From Verrucomicrobiota bacterium (GTDB lineage: Bacteria; Verrucomicrobiota; Verrucomicrobiia; Limisphaerales; SIBE01): a DNA stretch of 43,983 bases. The stretch's first letter is position 1. Each line of letters begins with the position of its first letter. Positions 32,315 to 43,130 of the stretch are shown here, piece after piece. The stretch spans positions 1 to 43,983 of the forward strand of contig JAQBVM010000014.1 in the NCBI GenBank assembly GCA_027623095.1, given 5' to 3'. Made by a program: the position numbers and the translations under genes. Under the pieces are notes generated by a model that was not told the origin of the DNA, ran no database searches, and saw nothing but the letters and a program-made list of their open reading frames with translations.

Positions 32315-33145
32315 CTAAGCTCTATTTGCAAGGTTCTGTTCCTTGTCGAGAAACGCTCGAAGCGACAAAATCGCTTCTGTGTGAATTTGACAAATCCGTG
32401 ATTCGCTAACGTTCATCAACATTGCAATGTCCTTGAGTCGCAGCCCTTCGTAATAGTACAGCGTCAGGACTTTTTTCTGTTGGGGGCTCATTTTCAGAAT
32501 GTACTGTTTGATGAGTTCTTGGAGATCCCGAGTGCTTGCTTGGGCGGCTGGATCCTGCTGATGAACATCTTCCAGTTGGAAGGGGGTGTAGTCGCCGCCA
32601 TCTGTGTTCTGCGCGGAGATCTCGTCCAAGGACACATAACTCACTATCCGCAGTTGATCCAGTAACTGCCGATACTCATTGATTGAAATTCCAAGTGAAC
32701 TCGCGGTTTCGACCTCCGTTGGCGTTCTAGAAAGCTTTTCCTCAAGCTCTTGAATGGCCCGCTCGAGCTTCTTCCATTTCGAGTAGGCACCTCGGGTGAC
32801 CGGGGAATTCTTCCGTAACTCATCCAGAATGGCCCCTCGGACCCGGTGTTTGCAGTAAACCTCAAAAGCAACACCCATTTCGGGGTCGAACGCCCGTGCC
32901 GCTTGAACCAGTGCAAAGTATCCGACACTCTTTAAATCGTCGAAATCGACCACTGACCTGGTGATCGGTGCGATTCGGTGGACCATCTTCAGAACCAACG
33001 GTGCGTACTTATGCACAAGATCTTCTTCAGAAAGCTCCTTAATTCCAGCGCTTTGGTAGGCTTTTAGAGCTCTGGCAGGCAGCGTCTGACCCGATGCTTT
33101 CGTATCGGTGGTCGCTTCCGGATTATAGGCGTCCTGAGGATTCAC
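32315..33145 (-). CDS. fliA: Flagellar sigma factor FliA (sigma-28 family)
   Basis: 276 residues. Region 2 shows DLVHKYAPLVLKMVHRIAP, DFDDLKSVGYFALVQAARAFDPE and AFEVYCKHRVRGAILDELRK, the canonical FliA/WhiG series. Region 3 (RTPTEVETASSLGISINEYRQLL) and region 4 (QQKKVLTLYYYEGLRLKDIAMLMNVSESRICQIHTEAI) follow. It directs late flagellar genes. It lies with the stator genes, and the upstream small membrane protein overlaps its start by 23 bases, so the start is set by coupling. No recognisable anti-sigma gene flgM is seen in the window. Confidence 0.95.
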   Translation of the reverse strand: MNPQDAYNPEATTDTKASGQTLPARALKAYQSAGIKELSEEDLVHKYAPLVLKMVHRIAPITRSVVDFDDLKSVGYFALVQAARAFDPEMGVAFEVYCKHRVRGAILDELRKNSPVTRGAYSKWKKLERAIQELEEKLSRTPTEVETASSLGISINEYRQLLDQLRIVSYVSLDEISAQNTDGGDYTPFQLEDVHQQDPAAQASTRDLQELIKQYILKMSPQQKKVLTLYYYEGLRLKDIAMLMNVSESRICQIHTEAILSLRAFLDKEQNLANRA

Positions 33146-33578: not shown

Positions 33579-35321
33579 CTACTTGGAAGCTTCACCAAGG
33601 ACCAGAATCAAAGCAGTGGCCGCCCGCGCTCTCGACATGAGCTCAGCCGCAGACAACTCTGGTCCAACCGTTGGCTGTACTTCTGGTTCAACTCCCGGTG
33701 CGGTGTTCAGGAAGGTTATCAAGTGGTCACTCTTAAGAACATATGTTTGGGATGTTCCAGAAGATTCGTCGTTTGACTGCGGGGCCGATTCGGGAACATC
33801 CAGCAGAAGCATTCCGACGATTTGTCCGCTCAAGTTGATTGCGGCAGTTCCTGCAAACGGGGAAGTTAAACGGGGCTTTATCGATAATTGTCGTGGGTTT
33901 GCTTGATAACCCAGAGATCCAGTGATCACAGCGCGAGCTGACCTTGGTGAGAATTCTCCTTGGTTTTCTTCGTTGAATCCGAGGGCTAAGATCTCAGAGT
34001 TGACAGGAGAGTTTCGGCTTGAAGTTAACGGTAAAGTTCCAGCTTGCCCGGAGATTTTCAGGAGGGCGATGTCAACAATTGGGTCCGACATTTCCACTTT
34101 CGCATCAAAGCGCCCGCCTTCTGTTAACACTTGGATAGTCGCCGCATCCGCCACTGTTCTATAGGTGGTGAAGAGATAGCCGTTCGTGGAAATGAAGAAG
34201 CCGCTTCCAACACGTTTTATCTGTGAGACATCAACCGCAGAGGCTAGGATTAGTTTTGGAGCGTCCAGGGCCTTTTCCGACTTTCGAGGCGTAAAATCTG
34301 CAGCCAGTTTTTGGGCTATTTGAATCTGCTCCTTCGTCATTAATCCCGAGAGAATCTCTTTGCTGGATGAAGCCTCAATGATTCCTGAGAACGCGGCGAG
34401 GTTCCACCATTTGTAGGCTTCAACATAATCGACTTGGACCCCTTTTCCCTCGTAGTACGCGACCCCCAAGCTATATTGAGCTGAAGGATGGCCGAACTCC
34501 GCCGCAGTCCGGTAGTGAGATACTGCAGTAATGAGATTCTGGGGAGCCCCCAAACCACGTTCGTAGCAGTATGCCAAGTTGAAGTGGGAATCCGCAAAAT
34601 TTCGGCTCGCCGCGAGGCTGAACCACTTCACGGCTTCAAAGTGGTTGGTCTGGCCGGCAGAACCGGAGAAATAGAGGTAACCAATCGCGTGTTGGGCAGC
34701 GGCATAACCTTGGTCGGCAGCAAGACGGAACCACTCAAATGCTTTTTGGGTATCCTTCTGGCCGGAAACGCCGTTGGCGTAGAGTTGACCGAGGCTGAAG
34801 TATGCCGGGACGAAATTCCGATTTGCGGCTTGCGTCAACCATTTTTCCGCTAGTTTTGGATCGGTCGCAACGCCTGGGCCCGTCTGATACTTTTTCCCCA
34901 AATTATACTGCGCGTACGGATGGCCTTGCATAGCGGCCTTTTGGTACCAGCGCACGGCCTCTCCGTAGTCAATGGCAACGCCGGAGCCGATTTCGTAGCA
35001 GTAGCCCAGGTTCGCTTGCGCGGATGCGTAACCCTTATCCGCCGCAAGACGGTACCATCGCACCGCTTCCCTTTCGTCCCGGGGAACGCCCTGCCCGACC
35101 TGAAAGCTGAGCGCCAGATTAAAGGCAGCCCAGGCTTCGCCGTCTTCGGCGGCACCTCGCCATATGGCAATCTGGTCTGATTTAGGAGTGCCTTTTTCTT
35201 CGGAAGCGAGCTCGATTTCGGCTGCCGCAAGCCCTATTAGCCCGCAGCACACAATCAAAAAGAGCGACAAGAATCTGACAATTCTAATTCTTTCGAACTT
35301 GTTCGCGAGCGCTGGTATCAT
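33579..35321 (-). CDS. Sel1-repeat protein fused to a degenerate trypsin-like domain
   Basis: 580 residues. A signal peptide (hydrophobic FLSLFLIVCCGLIGLAAA) exports it. Seven Sel1 repeats of about 36 residues occupy about 57-309, each starting AA(D/E/M)xG and ending in a WYRLA/WFSLA-type helix. A serine-protease-like beta domain follows (about 375-545). Its three catalytic positions compare poorly with active enzymes: the His segment reads TTYRTVADA, with Arg where THVV carries His; the Asp segment DPIVDIALLKI is normal; the Ser segment reads SPFAGTAAINLSGQIVG, with Ala where GNSGGP has Ser. It is therefore likely a binding domain, not a protease. It lies between the divergent motility units and may serve envelope or motility scaffolding. 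Confidence 0.85.
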   Translation of the reverse strand: MIPALANKFERIRIVRFLSLFLIVCCGLIGLAAAEIELASEEKGTPKSDQIAIWRGAAEDGEAWAAFNLALSFQVGQGVPRDEREAVRWYRLAADKGYASAQANLGYCYEIGSGVAIDYGEAVRWYQKAAMQGHPYAQYNLGKKYQTGPGVATDPKLAEKWLTQAANRNFVPAYFSLGQLYANGVSGQKDTQKAFEWFRLAADQGYAAAQHAIGYLYFSGSAGQTNHFEAVKWFSLAASRNFADSHFNLAYCYERGLGAPQNLITAVSHYRTAAEFGHPSAQYSLGVAYYEGKGVQVDYVEAYKWWNLAAFSGIIEASSSKEILSGLMTKEQIQIAQKLAADFTPRKSEKALDAPKLILASAVDVSQIKRVGSGFFISTNGYLFTTYRTVADAATIQVLTEGGRFDAKVEMSDPIVDIALLKISGQAGTLPLTSSRNSPVNSEILALGFNEENQGEFSPRSARAVITGSLGYQANPRQLSIKPRLTSPFAGTAAINLSGQIVGMLLLDVPESAPQSNDESSGTSQTYVLKSDHLITFLNTAPGVEPEVQPTVGPELSAAELMSRARAATALILVLGEASK

Positions 35322-35814
35322 CTCGTTAATTTAAGAAATTAACCGTCATTTACGGGTAAACCTTCCCGAATGTCGAGATTTCCCGTCGGTTCGGAAATCA
35401 ACAGTCGGAATGACCTACACGAACCGCACTCTGCGGTTGGATTCCTCGAATGCACGAACCCGTGAATCCGAGACCTCTTTTTCTTCAATCCATCCTGGCT
35501 GCTAATGCTAGGAAGGGATGTTCTGAGCACGATTCGGGCCGAGCTCGCGACTCCTTCTCAATCACAGGCGAGGGCCGATTTCGCGTTTGTGAAGATTCGT
35601 CTTCTTGCTCTTTGGTTTCAGCTCGAACGTGTCTCCTCCTCAGGTTCTGGCGCGGAGAACGACAGTTTTGCGATCGACGTCAAACGTATCTACGGATTTT
35701 CTCTCGGAAACCAAGGCGGAAAAAAAATCGTGATGGCACTCATTGAATGGCAGGTTTTTCCTTAATTGGATTCAGCTCGGGAGGATTAAGTAGAAATCTC
35801 CATGTTTTACCGCG
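35322..35814. other. Intergenic stretch between the Sel1 gene and the flgB promoter
   Basis: About 490 bases with overlapping open frames up to 98 codons on both strands, none with recognisable protein features or a good start. It should contain the promoter of the Sel1 gene (minus strand) and upstream activator sites for the flgB promoter (plus strand). I saw no clear repeat or palindrome to mark them. Confidence 0.4.
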
Positions 35815-35830
35815 TGGCACGTGGCGTGCT
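35815..35830 (+). promoter_or_regulatory. Sigma-54 type -24/-12 promoter of the flagellar operon
   Basis: TGGCACGTGGCGTGCT matches the sigma-54 consensus TGGCACG-N4-TTGCW, with one change (G for the first T of the -12 box). The essential GG (35816-35817) and GC (35828-35829) are exactly 12 bases apart. The expected start of transcription is about 35841, 14 bases before the flgB ATG. Flagellar rod and export genes depend on sigma-54 in several bacterial groups. Confidence 0.6.
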
Positions 35831-35854
35831 TGGCAGTTTCTGGCAAAATTGGCA

Positions 35855-36238
35855 ATGATTGAAGGACTCTATTCTAGCAGCAGTTATCAGGGGCTACAGA
35901 AGATGCTCGATGCCACAGTTATGCGGCATGAGGCGATCGCGAGTAACTTGGCCAATTTAGAGACCCCAAATTACAAGCGGATTGATGTCGATACGCGCTT
36001 CGACGCGGAGCTTTCCAGAGCGATCGGGAATGGGAATTCAAAGGATATCGCCCGCTTGGAGCCTCGCATGGTGGTTGACAGAACCGCCATTGCCGCGAAT
36101 CGGGATGGCAACACAGTTCAGCTCGAGAAAGAGATGCTTTCATTGCAGCAGAACTCGATGGCGCACCGAATGCAAACACAATTCATTACGGGGCGTTTGA
36201 TGAAACTGAAAAGCGCAATTCAAGGGAAAGTCGGATGA
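35855..36238 (+). CDS. flgB: Flagellar basal-body rod protein FlgB
   Basis: 127 residues. The N-terminus carries the rod/hook family motif MRHEAIASNLANLETPNYKR. A variable middle and the C-terminal helix ending QFITGRLMKLKSAIQG complete a proximal rod subunit of normal length. The frame stays open upstream to 35747, but those 36 residues do not match FlgB and the -24/-12 promoter lies inside them, so the ATG at 35855 is preferred. The stop overlaps flgC by four bases (ATGA). First gene of the flagellar operon. Confidence 0.93.
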   Translation: MIEGLYSSSSYQGLQKMLDATVMRHEAIASNLANLETPNYKRIDVDTRFDAELSRAIGNGNSKDIARLEPRMVVDRTAIAANRDGNTVQLEKEMLSLQQNSMAHRMQTQFITGRLMKLKSAIQGKVG

Positions 36239-36663
36239 TTAACCTAATGCCAGGAGTCGAAAGCGCGGCCTCCGCGCTCCATGCCGAAAAAATTCGGATG
36301 GAAGTAATCGCTCAGAATATTGCAAATGCCAACGTCACAAAAATGGCCGACGGAAAGCCCTATGAGCGGCAGGTCGTCCGTTTCGACTCGATCTTGTCTG
36401 AAAAACTGGGAGCCGATTCCCAAGCAGTTCCTCAGTTCGTGAAGGCGGCAAGCATTGTCGGAGACGGACGCCCGCCAAAGATAATGTTCCAACCCGGCCA
36501 TCCGGATGCCAACGAGAGCGGCATGGTTGCTTATCCGAATGTGGATGTGCATATAGAAATGGCGGATATGATCGCGTCTTCCCGAACGTACGAGGCGAAT
36601 TTGGCGGTCATTAAGAACGCGCGCTCGATGGCGCTTCAAACACTTTCGATCGGACACCGTTAA
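36235..36663 (+). CDS. flgC: Flagellar basal-body rod protein FlgC
   Basis: 142 residues. The N-terminal helix contains EKIRMEVIAQNIANANVTKM, the flagellar rod signature, and the C-terminal helix has SSRTYEANLAVIKNARSMALQTL, matching FlgC-type rod proteins. The region VAYPNVDVHIEMADMI is typical of this subunit. It overlaps flgB by the four bases ATGA and is followed by fliE 20 bases later. Confidence 0.94.
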   Translation: MINLMPGVESAASALHAEKIRMEVIAQNIANANVTKMADGKPYERQVVRFDSILSEKLGADSQAVPQFVKAASIVGDGRPPKIMFQPGHPDANESGMVAYPNVDVHIEMADMIASSRTYEANLAVIKNARSMALQTLSIGHR

Positions 36664-36683: not shown

Positions 36684-37061
36684 ATGAATCCGATTTCGGC
36701 AAGTAGCGGAAGTTTTTCGATGGCGCAGCTTCAAGCTGAGCTTCAGATGCGCCGGCAGGTTGGCGGCGCGAACGATGAGATTTCTTCGCCTGGATTCCCG
36801 TCAATTGGTTCGGAAGGGATTGCTCAGTCGAAACAGCCGATGGTTGGGTTCGACAGTCTGTTGGGAAACTTCGTTCAGGAAGTGAACAACAAGCAAGTGG
36901 CCTCTGGAGACGCAATAACGGGGTTGCTCGGAGGCGGAGATGTTCAGCTTCACCAAGCGATGATCGCGATGGAGGAAGCAAGTGTCTCTTTCCAACTGAT
37001 GGTCGAAGTTCGGAACAAACTGCTGGAGGGTTATCAGGAGCTTCTCCGAATGCAGGTGTGA
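36684..37061 (+). CDS. fliE: Flagellar hook-basal body complex protein FliE
   Basis: 125 residues. Links the MS ring to the rod. The C-terminal half has the FliE pattern: FDSLLGNFVQEVNNKQ, then GDVQLHQAMIAMEEASVSFQLM and RNKLLEGYQELLRMQV. The N-terminal 45 residues are variable and probably disordered. Its place between flgC and fliF is the standard order. Confidence 0.93.
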   Translation: MNPISASSGSFSMAQLQAELQMRRQVGGANDEISSPGFPSIGSEGIAQSKQPMVGFDSLLGNFVQEVNNKQVASGDAITGLLGGGDVQLHQAMIAMEEASVSFQLMVEVRNKLLEGYQELLRMQV

Positions 37062-37131: not shown

Positions 37132-38868
37132 ATGCACGCCTTAAAGTTATTAGGTCAACAGCTTGGGAAAATCTGGAGTCAGCTCGGCATCAACCAGCGG
37201 GTGACGATAATCATCTCGGGGTTGGCTGTCATGATCGCGCTTGGCGGTTTAGTGTTTTGGTCCAGTCGTCCAAACTACGCTCTTCTGTACAGCAGGTTGG
37301 ATCCTGAGGAAGCTGGCAAGGTTGTGACGGAACTCGAGGAAATGAAGATTCCGAACCGTTTTGGCGCCGGAGGAAGTTCCATCTATGTCGCTCAGGGGGA
37401 AGTTTACCGCGCAAGAATGCAACTCGCCACGAAGGGTTTGCCCAAAGCGACTGGTGTTGGCTTTGAGATTTTTGACAAACCGGCTTTTGGAATGTCGGAT
37501 TTCATTCAGCAGGCGAATTATTTACGGGCGGTTCAGGGTGAGCTGCAGCGAACGATCGCCCAGATTGATGGAGTGGAGTCGGCGCGCGTCATGATTGTGA
37601 AGCCTGAAAGCCGTTTGCTGGTTGATCCCCAGAAAAAGACGACCGCGTCCGTTTTTGTAAAGCTGCGCTCCTCCGGATCCCTCGACTCTCAAGCGGTAAA
37701 TGCAATTCGATTTCTTGTGGCGAACTCTGTAGAGGGGCTGAAGGCCAATCAGGTGTCGGTTGTGGATAGCTCCGGAAGCGTCTTATCGGAAGTGGGGGAA
37801 GAAGGATCCATTAATTCGATTAGCTCGGGTCAGTTTGCCGCTCGGCAGCGCGTTGAAAAATATTTGAAGGATAAGGTCACGGACATGCTCGAAGGATTCT
37901 TGGGGCCAAATCAGGTCGTTGTCAGTGTCTCCGCGGAGATTAATAATGAGTCGATCACGAAGACGGACGAGTATTATGATCCGAAAGGCCAGGTTGCTCG
38001 ATCAAAGACTCTTCGGGATGAGACCACCGATTCGCTGACTCCGCAGCCGGGAGGTGTGCCTGGAACACCAATTAACACAAGTGTGGATACGAACGCGCTG
38101 GCATCCGCGATGGTGAACAACAGGACGACAAAGAAAGATACAACCGATGAATATGCCCTCAGTTTTTCCAAGACAAATTTGGTCCGCACGGCTGGTAATG
38201 TAAAACGAGTCACGGCTTCGGTGTTTGTGAATTCGAGCGATGACCCAAGTATTACAAATCGGGTCGATGAGTTGAAATCGGCTGTGGTGAACGCGCTGGG
38301 TTTGGTTATCCTGGATGGCGATTTGGCGGGCGCACCGGAGGTATCGCTCGCGTTCTTCGAGTTCAGCAAGAAGCACGAAGTGGAGCTTTCGATGAAACTA
38401 GATGCGGAAGAAAAGACCGATATGATGTGGAAAGTGGGCAGGAGCTCTTTGTATGTTTTGTTGGGTCTTGCGGCGTTGATCGGATTTTGGCGGTTGGTCA
38501 AGAATTCAAGCGAAGAATTGCTGCCCACGGGCATCCCTGTCGGACAATTGATTGGCGGCCAGCTTGTCTATGAGGCGCCGTCGGCGGGAATGGGAATGGG
38601 AATGGGAATGTCGATGTCCTCCGGAGTCGTGCAGGCGTCACAAGAACATCGGATTGAAGAAATCATGCCCGAGGACGAGGACGTGGAAGAGCTGCAGGCT
38701 GCGAAGTCTAAGATGGTGATGGATTTCGGTCTTGGCCAGCAGGCGCCCGAACGGATTACAATCGAAGTCTTGAAACAGTTGATCCGTGAGAACCCGATCA
38801 AGATGAGCCAAGCGGCGCGGACCTGGATGGCTCGCAAGACGTCTAGTGAAGGTGACAACTTTTCATAA
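37132..38868 (+). CDS. fliF: Flagellar MS-ring protein FliF
   Basis: 578 residues. Two membrane helices, at about 24-46 (VTIIISGLAVMIALGGLVFW) and about 436-457 (SLYVLLGLAALIGFWRLV), flank a periplasmic region. Ring-building motifs are visible: YSRLDPEEAGKVV, YRARMQLATKGLP, FQLQ-like MSDFIQQANYLRAVQGEL, and AQIDGVESARVMIVKPE. A Gly/Met-rich stretch (MGMGMGMSMS) lies after the second helix in the cytoplasmic tail. The C-terminus (NPIKMSQAARTWM) is the FliG-binding part. Size and order are normal. Confidence 0.95.
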   Translation: MHALKLLGQQLGKIWSQLGINQRVTIIISGLAVMIALGGLVFWSSRPNYALLYSRLDPEEAGKVVTELEEMKIPNRFGAGGSSIYVAQGEVYRARMQLATKGLPKATGVGFEIFDKPAFGMSDFIQQANYLRAVQGELQRTIAQIDGVESARVMIVKPESRLLVDPQKKTTASVFVKLRSSGSLDSQAVNAIRFLVANSVEGLKANQVSVVDSSGSVLSEVGEEGSINSISSGQFAARQRVEKYLKDKVTDMLEGFLGPNQVVVSVSAEINNESITKTDEYYDPKGQVARSKTLRDETTDSLTPQPGGVPGTPINTSVDTNALASAMVNNRTTKKDTTDEYALSFSKTNLVRTAGNVKRVTASVFVNSSDDPSITNRVDELKSAVVNALGLVILDGDLAGAPEVSLAFFEFSKKHEVELSMKLDAEEKTDMMWKVGRSSLYVLLGLAALIGFWRLVKNSSEELLPTGIPVGQLIGGQLVYEAPSAGMGMGMGMSMSSGVVQASQEHRIEEIMPEDEDVEELQAAKSKMVMDFGLGQQAPERITIEVLKQLIRENPIKMSQAARTWMARKTSSEGDNFS

Positions 38869-38882
38869 CGAGAGGACGCTCC

Positions 38883-39896
38883 ATGGATCAAAATTCTGGA
38901 AAGATCGAAAGTTACAAAACGATGTCTCAGCTCCAGAAGCTGGCGGCGCTAATGATCCTCTTGGGCGAGGACAGCGCCAGCATCATGATCAAAAGTTTTG
39001 ACGACAACGAGCGGGAACTTCTCTCCGCTGAAATGGCGAACCTGCCCTTGATGGGCCTGGAAGAACAGACGTCGGTCCTGAAGGAGTTTACTGAGATGGC
39101 GCTGCAGGCAAACGCAGCGCTGGGTGGTTCCGTTGAATACACCCGTTCAGTGCTTGAGAAATCGGTTGGTCTCTTTAAAGCCGCCGAAATTATCGGGCGT
39201 GTTTCGACACGGCGAACGTCCGTCGCCACGATGCAGCAGATCATCGATATGGAGCCACTGGCTATCGTGAACCTGATCAAAGAGGAACAACCTCAAACGA
39301 TCGCTTTGGTGATCAGCTATCTCACTGCTCAAAAAGGCGCGGATGTGCTTTTGAACCTTCCGGAACATCTGGCTGAGCAGGTTGTGGAACGGCTGGCAAC
39401 TCTATCTTCCACCCCGATTGAAGTCGTGGAAACGGTCGGTGAAGTGCTTTCGAAGAAGATCGGTCCGAAGATGTCCCGCGCGCTCAATCAGACAGGCGGC
39501 GTGAAATCCGCGGCGGCGGTCCTGAACGTAATGGAAAAGGTACGCCGCCAAGACATTCTCAACAAGCTCGACGAGCGTACTCCAGAGCTGGTGCGGTCGA
39601 TCCGAATGAAGATGTTCACGTTCGACGATTTGGCGACACTCGATAACAAGAGCTTGCAGAAGATTTTGCGTGAAGTCGATTCTTCAACGCTTGCCATCGC
39701 CCTGAGCGCCGCCAACGAGAACCTGCGAAGCTCGCTTCTTGGATCGATCTCAAAACGCGCGTCTGACACCGTTATTGACGAAATAGGAAACCTGGGGCGG
39801 ATTACACTCCGCGAAATAGAACAATCGCAGGACGGCATTATCGATGTCGTCCGCAAACTGGAAGCTGAGGGAGAGATCTCGCTCGAATCTGGATAA
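38883..39896 (+). CDS. fliG: Flagellar motor switch protein FliG
   Basis: 337 residues, C-ring. The N-domain (about 15-110) binds FliF, and the middle domain shows EEQPQTIALVISYL in place of the EHPQ motif. The C-domain (about 240-330) includes KMFTFDDLATLD and the torque helix region SKRASDTVIDEI, where the Arg and the acidic pair that face MotA are retained. The nearby segment that reads ALKG in enteric FliG reads ALSA here, so one of the positions that carries a Lys in E. coli is Ser. The gene starts 14 bases after fliF and is followed by fliH after 3 bases. Confidence 0.95.
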   Translation: MDQNSGKIESYKTMSQLQKLAALMILLGEDSASIMIKSFDDNERELLSAEMANLPLMGLEEQTSVLKEFTEMALQANAALGGSVEYTRSVLEKSVGLFKAAEIIGRVSTRRTSVATMQQIIDMEPLAIVNLIKEEQPQTIALVISYLTAQKGADVLLNLPEHLAEQVVERLATLSSTPIEVVETVGEVLSKKIGPKMSRALNQTGGVKSAAAVLNVMEKVRRQDILNKLDERTPELVRSIRMKMFTFDDLATLDNKSLQKILREVDSSTLAIALSAANENLRSSLLGSISKRASDTVIDEIGNLGRITLREIEQSQDGIIDVVRKLEAEGEISLESG

Positions 39897-39899
39897 TTT

Positions 39900-40535
39900 A
39901 TGATTAATGTCGCACAGAATCCGGCTATTTTTGGATACCTGCGGGATATCCGAATCAAACGTCAATTGAAGAGAGACACCGAACTTGGCGACCGAAACGA
40001 GGCCGCCGATGAGCTTCTGCGGAACCGCGAGCAATCCGCATTTGAGCGCGGTCAAAGAGAGGCTGAAGGAAAGTTTGCGGGGCAGACTGAGCAATTGCGA
40101 TGTGAGTGGGAGACGGAACACCGCGCCGAAGTTGTCAAGGCGCTCGAGGAATTGAACGCGAGCATCCATCGTCAGATGTCGGATGTGTTTAAGGCGTTGG
40201 AGAAGCATATGGTGATGCTCGCCGCCGAGGCGGCGATTCGTCTCACTGCCGGCATTCCTGTTACCGCGGACATGGTGGAGGCTTATGTACGCGAAGCGGT
40301 GGGCCCTGTTGAGAATGACACGGAGGTAACCATCATTCTGAATCCCGAAGATTACGCTTTGTTGGAACAACATCAGTCGAGCTTGCTGAATCGGGCTGGT
40401 GCGCACCCGGTTTTTAAGTTTCGATGCGACCAGAAGGTTGGCCGCGGAGGATGTTTGGTGGAAACAAAATTTGGCGAATTGGATGCGCGAAGAGAGACGA
40501 AGATTGAGTTGCTGAGGAAGGCTGTCAACGAATGA
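39900..40535 (+). CDS. fliH: Flagellar assembly protein FliH
   Basis: 211 residues, cytoplasmic. A long helical charged part (about 15-105) contains EREAEGKFAGQ-type Gly-spaced helices usual in FliH and HrpE-like stalks. The C-terminal alpha/beta domain has VTIILNPEDYALLEQHQ and GRGGCLVETKFGELDARRETK, a standard FliH C-terminal block. It binds and inhibits the FliI ATPase. Its stop overlaps the fliI ATG (ATGA). Confidence 0.9.
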   Translation: MINVAQNPAIFGYLRDIRIKRQLKRDTELGDRNEAADELLRNREQSAFERGQREAEGKFAGQTEQLRCEWETEHRAEVVKALEELNASIHRQMSDVFKALEKHMVMLAAEAAIRLTAGIPVTADMVEAYVREAVGPVENDTEVTIILNPEDYALLEQHQSSLLNRAGAHPVFKFRCDQKVGRGGCLVETKFGELDARRETKIELLRKAVNE

Positions 40536-41929
40536 TCAAACTGGTTGACGACTCGGGAGCGCCGCCGACTCTGATCGAGGCGGCGCGCTCGCGATTACGT
40601 TCGGTCTCATTGATCGAACGTCACGGGCGAGTCGTGCAAATGATCGGCTTGGTGATCGAGTCGCGTGGCCCTATGTCTGCGGTCGGTGATATCTGTCAGA
40701 TCGAGTCCGCTTCAAATTCCGAAGGAATGCTTGCCGAGGTCGTCGGTTTTCGGAACGAGAATCTTCTCTTGATGCCGCTCGGCGAGGTGAATGGCGTTCG
40801 TCCCGGGAGCCGGGTTGTCGCCACCGGATCTCCCCTCCGCATTCCCGTTGGCGAAGATCTCAAAGGGCGAGTCATTGACGGTCTCGGAAACCCGATTGAT
40901 GACGGCGGCCCGATTACAAGCCAGCTTCTGGAGGAGCTGAATCTGACATCGCCGCATCCACTCAAACGCGACAGGATCACGCAACAGTTTCAAACTGGCA
41001 TCAAGGCGATTGACACGTTCGTTCCCTGCGGCCGTGGTCAAAGAATGGGGATTTTTTCAGGGAGCGGTGTTGGCAAATCCACATTGCTTGGAATGATGGC
41101 AAGCAGGGCGGAAGCGGATGTCAACGTGATCGCGCTCATCGGCGAGCGCGGACGAGAGGTTCGCGAGTTTCTGGAAAGGGATCTGGATGAGGCGGGGCGG
41201 GCGAAGTCCATTGTTATCGTTGCGACGTCGAATCAACCGGCCCTAGTGCGCGTGCGAGCGACGTTTTTGGCGATGACGATCGCCGAGTTCTTTCGGTCGC
41301 AGGGTAAGAATGTTCTGCTAATGATGGATTCGATCACGCGTTTTGCGATGGCGCAGCGGGAGATTGGACTTGCCGTGGGGGAACCGCCGACTTCGCGCGG
41401 TTATACGCCCTCGGTTTTCGCGCTGCTTCCCCAGTTGCTGGAGAGAGCCGGGAACGATGACAATGGGTCCATTACCGGGCTGTTCACTGTATTGGTGGAG
41501 GGGGACGACATGAACGACCCCATTGCGGATTCAGCTCGCTCCATTCTGGACGGGCATTTGGTACTGACTCGAGAACTGGCAACTTTAAATCATTATCCCG
41601 CCATCGACATACTTGAGAGTGTGAGCCGCTTGACCCGGGATCTTTTGACGCCGGATCAAATCAACATGGTCGGTGGCGCGCGCGAGGAACTTGCGGTTTA
41701 CCGGAAGAATCAAGACTTGATCACAATCGGGGCTTACGTGGCAGGCAGCAATCCGATGATCGACCAGGCGATTCGATTGCAGAGACCGTTGATGGGGTTT
41801 CTGCGGCAAAATGTGAACGAGTCGAAGAGCATCGCTGAAAGTTGGGAGTTTTTGACAACGGTTCTTAAACCTCCGGCTCCTCCGCCAACTTCAAACGACA
41901 AGGGTAAGAATCCTGTGCGTCCGAAATAG
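40532..41929 (+). CDS. fliI: Flagellum-specific export ATPase FliI
   Basis: 465 residues. Walker A GSGVGKST (about 177-184), Walker B NVLLMMDSITRFAMAQREIG and the T3SS ATPase signature GEPPTSRGYTPSVFALLPQLLERAG are present. The N-terminal FliI domain and a C-terminal helical part give the normal length. It drives type III export of flagellar subunits. Translation is probably coupled to fliH through the four-base overlap. Confidence 0.97.
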   Translation: MIKLVDDSGAPPTLIEAARSRLRSVSLIERHGRVVQMIGLVIESRGPMSAVGDICQIESASNSEGMLAEVVGFRNENLLLMPLGEVNGVRPGSRVVATGSPLRIPVGEDLKGRVIDGLGNPIDDGGPITSQLLEELNLTSPHPLKRDRITQQFQTGIKAIDTFVPCGRGQRMGIFSGSGVGKSTLLGMMASRAEADVNVIALIGERGREVREFLERDLDEAGRAKSIVIVATSNQPALVRVRATFLAMTIAEFFRSQGKNVLLMMDSITRFAMAQREIGLAVGEPPTSRGYTPSVFALLPQLLERAGNDDNGSITGLFTVLVEGDDMNDPIADSARSILDGHLVLTRELATLNHYPAIDILESVSRLTRDLLTPDQINMVGGAREELAVYRKNQDLITIGAYVAGSNPMIDQAIRLQRPLMGFLRQNVNESKSIAESWEFLTTVLKPPAPPPTSNDKGKNPVRPK

Positions 41930-41938
41930 TCTGACGAT

Positions 41939-42397
41939 ATGAAACCATTTCGATTTTCGCTTCAAGCGGTTTTAACCATCCGGGTTAACCAGGAACGAAA
42001 GGCTCTCGAGGCGTTCGCGCTGGCGCAGCGCGCGCTTGAAGCGGCAGAGGCTCGGTTTCAAGCGATCCGAAACGATATCGATGAACTTCACGGGGCGCGG
42101 CGTGACGTTCTGAGAAAAATGGCTGTCTCAGAAAATCTTCAGCAGATGCAGCACGGGCTTCGGGCATTGAAGGAGCGGATTATCGGCGCGCAGGCGGATG
42201 TTCAAAGGGAACGTGCTGTTGTGGCGGATCGATCACGAGCTTTGCTCGATGCGCGGAAGAACCGCGAGGTCATCGAGAAACTCTATCATAAGCGGCGCGC
42301 CACGCACACGATTCAGACTGCACGCACGGACCAGCGGGCTCTCGACGACTTTGCCACTATAAAGTCTGTCGGTGGGCTCGCCATGAAGTGGCGGTAG
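41939..42397 (+). CDS. fliJ: Flagellar export chaperone FliJ
   Basis: 152 residues, cytoplasmic. Nearly all helical and charged, starting MKPFRFSLQAVLTIRVNQE, a typical FliJ opening, and continuing as a long antiparallel coiled coil (AQRALEAAEARFQ, DIDELHGARRDVL, RALLDARKNREVIEKLYHKRRA). It works with FliI and FlhA in the export gate. It follows fliI by 9 bases and is followed by the MotE-like gene after 7 bases. Confidence 0.87.
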   Translation: MKPFRFSLQAVLTIRVNQERKALEAFALAQRALEAAEARFQAIRNDIDELHGARRDVLRKMAVSENLQQMQHGLRALKERIIGAQADVQRERAVVADRSRALLDARKNREVIEKLYHKRRATHTIQTARTDQRALDDFATIKSVGGLAMKWR

Positions 42398-42404
42398 TTG
42401 AAAT

Positions 42405-43130
42405 ATGAAGAAGATTCTGACATCGAAATGGTTCGCCCTCGGGGTCGGAATGGTCGGGTTTGTTTTGACGATCCTTCTGGTATACGAGCCTGCGGAAACG
42501 AAATCACCTGCCGATCCGGCTGGATCGGAAACTTCTACCAACGAGGCTCCGGCACACGTGGAGGTGGAGGAGCACTCTCCCTTGAAGGCGCTACCGATAC
42601 CGATCGTCGCTCCTCCGCCGGCTGAGCCCATGCTGGCATCACAGGTTGGCGAACCGGGTTCGCTGCGTTTTAACAATCCGGATATCCGCGAGCTGGTTGA
42701 TGAACTTCTTCGCGAGAAGGAGAAGTTGTTGAAGTGGGAAGCGGACCTGAACGAATTACAGCAGCGTCTCGCTTTGGAGAAGGAATTCATTGGCGCTATT
42801 ACTCAAGAGGTTCTGCGCGCCAAGGCGGCGATGGAGCTGTCGTTGACCAACGGACGTACCAGTATCAAGGATCAGGAGAAACGGCAGCTCTCGGATTTGG
42901 CGGGTGTTTACACAAACATGCCTCCGGGAAGTGCGGTGGCAATTCTGAACGGAATGGAAGTCGATGATATCGCCCTTATTCTGAATAACATGGGGCCGGT
43001 TCAAAAAGCGTTGATACTTGAAAATTTTGCTACGAACGAAGTTACCAAAACTACCGGAAAAGCGACAGAAATAAGCGAAAAAATTCGCCGACTTGTCCGT
43101 GAACAAGAGATCCCCACAAAAAAGCGATGA
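42405..43130 (+). CDS. MotE-like membrane coiled-coil protein, MgtE-N-like C-terminus
   Basis: 241 residues. One N-terminal membrane helix (about 9-27, WFALGVGMVGFVLTILLVY), a Pro-rich linker (about 30-85), a coiled coil (about 95-160, DELLREKEKLLKWEADLNEL) and a C-terminal block LAGVYTNMPPGSAVAILNGMEVDDIALILNNMGPVQKALIL that resembles the MgtE N-domain seen in MotE. MotE/FliJ-neighbouring proteins help install the stator. It overlaps the next gene by the four bases ATGA, so it is part of the operon. Confidence 0.78.
   Translation: MKKILTSKWFALGVGMVGFVLTILLVYEPAETKSPADPAGSETSTNEAPAHVEVEEHSPLKALPIPIVAPPPAEPMLASQVGEPGSLRFNNPDIRELVDELLREKEKLLKWEADLNELQQRLALEKEFIGAITQEVLRAKAAMELSLTNGRTSIKDQEKRQLSDLAGVYTNMPPGSAVAILNGMEVDDIALILNNMGPVQKALILENFATNEVTKTTGKATEISEKIRRLVREQEIPTKKR

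Follow-up and report, generated by a model that had tools for sequence, protein, structure and literature searches.

Sigma-54 flagellar hierarchies are known from Vibrio, with the regulators FlrA/FlrC, and Pseudomonas, with FleQ/FleR. FlgR of Campylobacter and Helicobacter and FlbD of Caulobacter are also NtrC-type activators of sigma-54-dependent flagellar genes. Transcription from sigma-54 promoters starts approximately 12 bp after the −12 element. A correlation between sigma-54 and flagella across sequenced genomes has been reported (Francke et al. 2011, PMC3162934); the main text of that paper contains no words beginning with Verrucomicrobi- or Planctomycet-. Verrucomicrobia are reported to possess RpoN often (PMC3372290), and a search of the open-access literature by titles and the beginnings of abstracts found no description of sigma-54 control of flagella in this phylum. 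The window analyzed here, a 43,983-nt stretch of a 7.4-Mb Verrucomicrobiota genome, carries a predicted flagellar operon headed by flgB. Because the element preceding flgB has the appearance of a genuine sigma-54 promoter equipped with its own enhancer, this little-studied group probably turns on its flagella by the activator-dependent route known from other bacteria. The sigma-54 flagellar hierarchy is already known as a kind, and the predicted short leader described below is the added feature. The analysis gives a testable regulatory circuit for the flagella of the phylum, comprising sigma factor, activator, enhancer, promoter and targets.

The features of the locus are listed in Table 1. 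It is very probable that the element at 35815–35830 is the −24/−12 promoter of flgBC-fliEFGHIJ, used by sigma-54 together with an NtrC-type regulator encoded on contig C327 and acting at 35749–35761. What the sequence documents directly is the presence and conservation of the sites, the rpoN and activator genes, and the co-occurrence of the latter with flgB. In the proposed circuit, sigma-54 RNA polymerase would bind the promoter element as a closed complex, the C327 response regulator would bind the upstream palindrome and open the complex by ATP hydrolysis, and flgB transcription would start near 35841. We also infer the operon extents, the signal and the action of FliA after the sigma-54 step. 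The same sigma factor would also serve flgF-G-A-H-I-J-N-K-L; the activator's own operon is a probable further target and fliW-csrA-fliC a possible one.

Table 1. Features of the flgB promoter region, the predicted operon and the neighbouring fliA gene (window coordinates).
Feature	Position	Strand	Basis
Putative −24/−12 sigma-54 promoter element TGGCACGTGGCGTGCT	35815..35830	+	Sequence; conserved before flgB in 30/30 genomes of the order with a flgB match (own included)
Predicted transcription start	35841	+	12 nt downstream of the C in the −12 GC; 14-nt 5′ UTR; general sigma-54 geometry
Putative enhancer GGCAGGTTTTTCC, palindrome	35749..35761	+	66 bp before the −24 element; also at −66 in G001 and −65 in G003 and G005
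flgB, first operon gene	35855..36238	+	Pfam PF00460; NCBIfam TIGR01396 FlgB, 79 bits (cut-off 59)
flgC	36235..36663	+	Pfam PF06429, PF00460; name from gene order
fliE	36684..37061	+	Pfam PF02049
fliF	37132..38868	+	Pfam PF01514, PF08345
fliG	38883..39896	+	Pfam PF01706, PF14842, PF14841
fliH	39900..40535	+	Pfam PF02108
fliI	40532..41929	+	Pfam PF00006, PF18269; name from gene order
fliJ	41939..42397	+	Pfam PF02050
Operon gene without Pfam hit	42405..43130	+	Same gene order in relatives (L128/L129, L131, L132, L135)
fliA (sigma-28), beside motA and motB	32315..33145	−	NCBIfam TIGR02479 FliA_WhiG, 220 bits (cut-off 190); motA and motB by Pfam

The promoter element reads TGGCACG-N4-GTGCT, with its GG (35816–35817) and GC (35828–35829) 12 bases apart, exactly as given in the preliminary description, and 24 bases separate its end from the flgB ATG. 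Compared with TGGCACG-N4-TTGCW, TGGCACGTGGCGTGCT fits at 11 of the 12 specified positions, with one mismatch, and it is the sole match to this pattern in the window at ≤1 mismatch; at ≤3 mismatches, the window contains 57 matches vs. 68 expected. Throughout the genome, 51 matches with ≤1 mismatch were found vs. 71 for the reversed pattern, which is no enrichment, and the exact TGGCAYN6TGCT occurs 21 times vs. 31 for the control. The motif alone was therefore rejected as evidence of a promoter, its genome counts being at chance level. At genome rates, the probability that a particular 45-bp stretch ahead of a named gene contains such a site is about 2 × 10−4. The start of flgB at 35747, taken from a mechanical list of open reading frames, would place the site inside the gene and was discarded, as the conserved N-terminus of the homologues favours 35855. 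Directly after the promoter, across the predicted transcription start, lies the sequence TTGGC-N7-GGCAAAA (35830–35848). The corresponding TTGSC-N7-GGCAAAA follows the flgB promoter in six of the seven genomes of the window's family, the sister species G001 being the one without it, and at none of the 23 other flgB loci of the order.

The conservation of the element was assessed in 58 genomes of the same order, the window's own included. flgB was found in 30 of them (26 genera) and flgF also in 30, the two sets differing in that G036 has flgF only and G040 flgB only. TGGCA[CT]-N6-TGCT is present 27–48 nt before the flgB start codon in all 30 genomes, own included; in shuffled upstream DNA, a score of ≥9/12 within 150 bp was reached on average in 1.5 of 30 cases, with a maximum of 7. 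At flgF, the site was likewise found in 30/30 genomes, 28 times as the exact TGGCAYN6TGCT, 27–31 nt before the start codon. At both genes, the flanking DNA diverges while the site stays. This 30/30 conservation at flgB supports the earlier proposal of a sigma-54 promoter ahead of the flagellar operon, and the reading of the element as a true sigma-54 promoter follows from its being kept in the same place by the relatives.

Beyond the order, flgB was located in 28 further genomes from a draw of 288 of the phylum, and the best match within 150 bp was taken, without a shuffle control. In the same class, at least 9 of the 10 key positions are retained in 18/18 genomes (three with TGTT for TGCT), and in other classes the site was found in eight of ten, four of these eight belonging to one genus. 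Counted as misses were L231, in which a 9/10 match lies more than 100 nt from the ATG, and L229, which has no site. The analysis as a whole suggests an old origin, within the phylum, of the control of early flagellar genes by sigma-54.

More than one flagellar operon of the genome itself carries a putative sigma-54 promoter. As had been anticipated, the motif recurs outside the window: on contig C327, an element begins 29 nt upstream of flgF, which heads flgF-G-A-H-I-J-N-K-L, and a one-base variant, TGGTACGGCCTCTGCT, lies 34 nt before fliW (fliW-csrA-fliC-fliC, contig C555). Since this 15.7-kb contig holds 12 relaxed matches in all, the latter is weak alone; exact sites precede fliW by 33 nt in G005 and by 31 nt in G056. 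In G057 and G029, a site is located 31 nt before the start of genes with weak, below-cut-off matches to FliK. A site also precedes the activator gene and the two genes ahead of it, a small one and one encoding a TPR protein, in the own genome and in all five of the family genomes examined (of seven others); in the own genome, it lies about 180 nt before the small gene.

RpoN, on which the early flagellar genes had been proposed to depend, is encoded by one copy, located on another contig and matched with 204 bits against a cut-off of 22.8. The frame is open, and a Gln-rich N-terminus and an RpoN box (ARRTVAKYR) were recognized by eye. The sigma-54 activator domain has 18 matches in the genome, twelve of them nearly full and none on the window's contig, in agreement with the earlier statement that the window holds no activator gene. 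The flagellar NtrC-type activator expected in the genome was found in the second flagellar cluster, outside the window (C327:16792–18243). It matches Response_reg, Sigma54_activat and HTH_8, corresponding to a receiver, an AAA+ domain and a Fis-type HTH, and GAFTGA and a candidate phosphorylated Asp were noted by eye. After it on C327 come fliD, a pair of genes with no match in Pfam, and then fliS and a fliT-like gene; the flgF operon belongs to the same cluster. The few neighbours of the activator gene that were given a family search include no histidine kinase.

Encoded ahead of the activator gene are a TPR protein and an unknown small protein (L123:18717–19697 and L124:83–673, contig C327). 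A TPR gene adjoins the activator gene in other families too (L099, L237–L239, L245–L248), and the TPR protein is perhaps a partner of the regulator.

The system resembles FlrA/FlrC and FleQ/FleR in its −24/−12 early flagellar promoters, in a regulator with the receiver–AAA+–Fis layout of FlrC/FleR and in the presence of FliA. It differs from them in that the regulator operon of the window's family has a sigma-54 site and that the flgF promoters reach nearly to the start codon. The regulator matches 35 PDB sequences, including the solved domains of FlrC, FlrA and FleQ, with NtrC-family regulators ranking higher, and no model of FlrC/FleR is present among the best 25 of the 107 NCBIfam families matched. 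The NCBIfam models of both FlbD and FlgR match the regulator; however, neither score comes near its curated cut-off (FlbD, 385 vs. 750 bits; FlgR, 343 vs. 750 bits), and the assignment as an equivalog of either was rejected for this reason.

Orthologues of the activator (≥56% identity) were found in all 30 flgB-positive genomes of the order, the one in G004 being split and that in G031 partial, and also in at least six of the 28 flgB-negative genomes, the other matches listed having ≤47% identity. This co-occurrence gives a Fisher P of 7 × 10−11, with kinship between genomes ignored and 6/28 as a lower bound. No more than 1.4 kb separates the activator gene from flgB in five genomes (G013, G023, G040, G052 and G054). 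The six flgB-negative, activator-positive genomes gave no FlhA match in a search that detected it in two of three flgB-positive controls and missed it in G040. One of these six, G017, retains the flgB promoter with the enhancer before a 29-residue flgB remnant (L251, C172:1736–1817). In G047, promoter and enhancer precede a degenerate frame that is flgB-like by eye and in which tblastn found nothing (L260, C182:3961–4043), and G036 has a partial flgF match. Activator-positive, flgB-negative genomes may reflect recent losses of flagella.

Two further loci were noted in this comparison. The FlhA search gave a match in one other flgB-negative genome, G014, which has a full FHIPEP (FlhA/SctV family) gene at C49:8737–10749 and in which flgB and flgF were not found; the gene possibly encodes a non-flagellar type III export gate. 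In G005, a second copy of the flgB promoter (L272, C1:22886–22965) stands before a degenerate flgB-like frame with a match of 23 residues; the intact flgB is about 45 kb away.

The palindrome upstream of the promoter is the putative binding site of the activator. A GGCAA-N3-TTGCC-like palindrome starts 63–70 bp before the −24 element at 19/30 flgB promoters (0.22 in shuffles), and a second palindrome is found 96–103 bp upstream at 10/30 (0.24 in shuffles). This second enhancer, near −99, stands out across the order but is weak in the window, so it was dropped as a part of the window's promoter. The flgB palindrome was picked after these promoters had been viewed, and the test on flgF alone is independent. 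A matrix derived from flgB promoters only (21 sites) recognized a site at −72 to −63 in 16/30 flgF promoters, with a mean of 0.17 and a maximum of 2 in shuffles, and at −105 to −96 in 6/30, with 0.2 in shuffles. Enhancer and promoter taken as one pattern, which was built from the flgB and flgF promoters themselves, occur once in the 7.4-Mb genome, at the window's flgB. In the 58 genomes, this pattern gave 34 matches in 25 genomes vs. 2 for the reversed control; by coordinates, 17 of them belong to flgB, 10 to flgF, 3 to flgB-like remnants (one by eye) and 4 lie elsewhere (including G026:C230). Outside the order, enhancers were scored only where the promoter reached ≥9/12, which left 14 of the 18 class-level loci. 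A palindrome was found at −108 to −122 in 12 of these 14 flgB loci, without a shuffle control. Outside the class, none of the nine scored flgB promoters has an enhancer at the class positions, and there is one match at −77.

Within the window's own family, the enhancer at −72 to −63 of flgF is absent in all seven genomes, with one match at −62 (L176), and the flgB enhancer is absent from its usual place in three of seven (L054, L057 and L058). No enhancer was found within 130–140 bp before the sites of the activator operon. Because it is missing at several family promoters, one enhancer does not explain the family. This loss, together with the activator count being a lower bound, reduces the confidence in a circuit run by the C327 regulator and gives more weight to a different assignment, in which the sigma-54 promoter is genuine and its activator is another of about 12 NtrC-type regulators, or in which the C327 regulator acts without this enhancer. 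The twelve nearly full activator domains of the genome and the different element, TTGSC-N7-GGCAAAA, after the promoter in most of the family genomes are in line with such an assignment. However, the C327 regulator, the one regulator of the genome whose neighbours were examined, sits among flagellar genes and tracks flgB, and the flgB of the window does have the enhancer, so that we hold another activator or another mode of action to be unlikely, though it is the strongest of the alternatives.

A sigma-54 site that is merely a minor second promoter, with the main flgB transcript coming from further upstream, appears distinctly improbable. The 533 bp before flgB without an identified gene would provide room for it, but no sigma-70-like match occurs in 35300–35829 on the + strand, and the spacing of the promoter and the position of the enhancer are fixed in relatives. 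Least credible of all is a chance match before flgB, with real transcription by sigma-70 or FliA: the motif shows no excess over the control in the genome and a sigma-70-like match (9/12) does lie at 35830–35859, the only one in 35300–35900 (shuffles mean 0.3), but this match runs over the start codon and would place the transcription start inside flgB, the sigma-54 site combined with the enhancer is unique in the genome, and its retention in every flgB and flgF promoter of the order amid diverging flanks in our view already excludes chance.

With the element read as a sigma-54 promoter, the lengths of the leaders can be estimated. The position of the flgF sites, 27–31 nt before the start codon, implies nearly leaderless mRNAs, with a predicted 5′ UTR of 1–5 nt in 30/30 genomes of the order. 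In the class outside the order, the predicted 5′ UTR of flgB is 1–6 nt in 18/18 genomes, the start codon being placed where homology begins. Within the order, it ranges from 1 to 22 nt with a median of 14, and the window, with 14 nt, has no obvious Shine–Dalgarno sequence. It seems reasonably likely that, in this phylum, the sigma-54 transcripts of the rod-gene operons are nearly leaderless, which would couple enhancer-dependent transcription to leaderless translation. The order's own flgB follows the short-leader pattern only loosely, and the activator operon, whose site lies about 180 nt upstream, departs from it. If true, the nearly leaderless arrangement unites two unusual modes of expression. 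Leaderless transcripts are reported to be common in Leptospira (PMC5243855), and some Verrucomicrobia are described as poor in Shine–Dalgarno sequences (PMC10783764). Neither the combination of leaderless with sigma-54 nor that of leaderless with Verrucomicrobi- was found in the literature by titles and the beginnings of abstracts.

The preliminary description also had FliA acting later than sigma-54, and this part of it stands only partly. In its favour are the fliA gene in the window and a sigma-28-like site on the contig of the flagellin gene, an exact TAAA-N15-GCCGATAA on C327. However, this site is about 730 bp upstream of fliC, and what precedes the second flagellin operon, fliW-csrA-fliC-fliC, resembles a sigma-54 site. 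A one-mismatch sigma-28-like site was also found 187 bp upstream of the small unidentified gene before fliS; both sigma-28-like sites were scored without a chance control. No sigma-54 site was seen by eye before fliA. The action of FliA after the sigma-54 step is therefore plausible and weakly supported.

Parts of the flgF operon were named by gene order together with Pfam. Below the cut-off are flgL (23.2 vs. 26.6 bits), fliT (28.1 vs. 29.5 bits) and also fliK of G057 and G029. Contig C31 gave a weak Flg_bbr_C match (L122, L126). The 16S segment ACACCTACGGGTGGCAGC, one 18-base site, equals the target of probe EUB338-III in four of the eight family genomes, own included, and the other four gave no match of any variant; this probe is listed for Verrucomicrobiales (PMC4070681). 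FliF, used as a query for named relatives, retrieved two distant loci, and it is from the single 16S site that the phylum was judged to be probably Verrucomicrobiota. Between fliA and the flgB promoter, the window (33579–35321) encodes a protein of 580 residues in which seven Sel1 repeats are combined with a trypsin-like peptidase domain.
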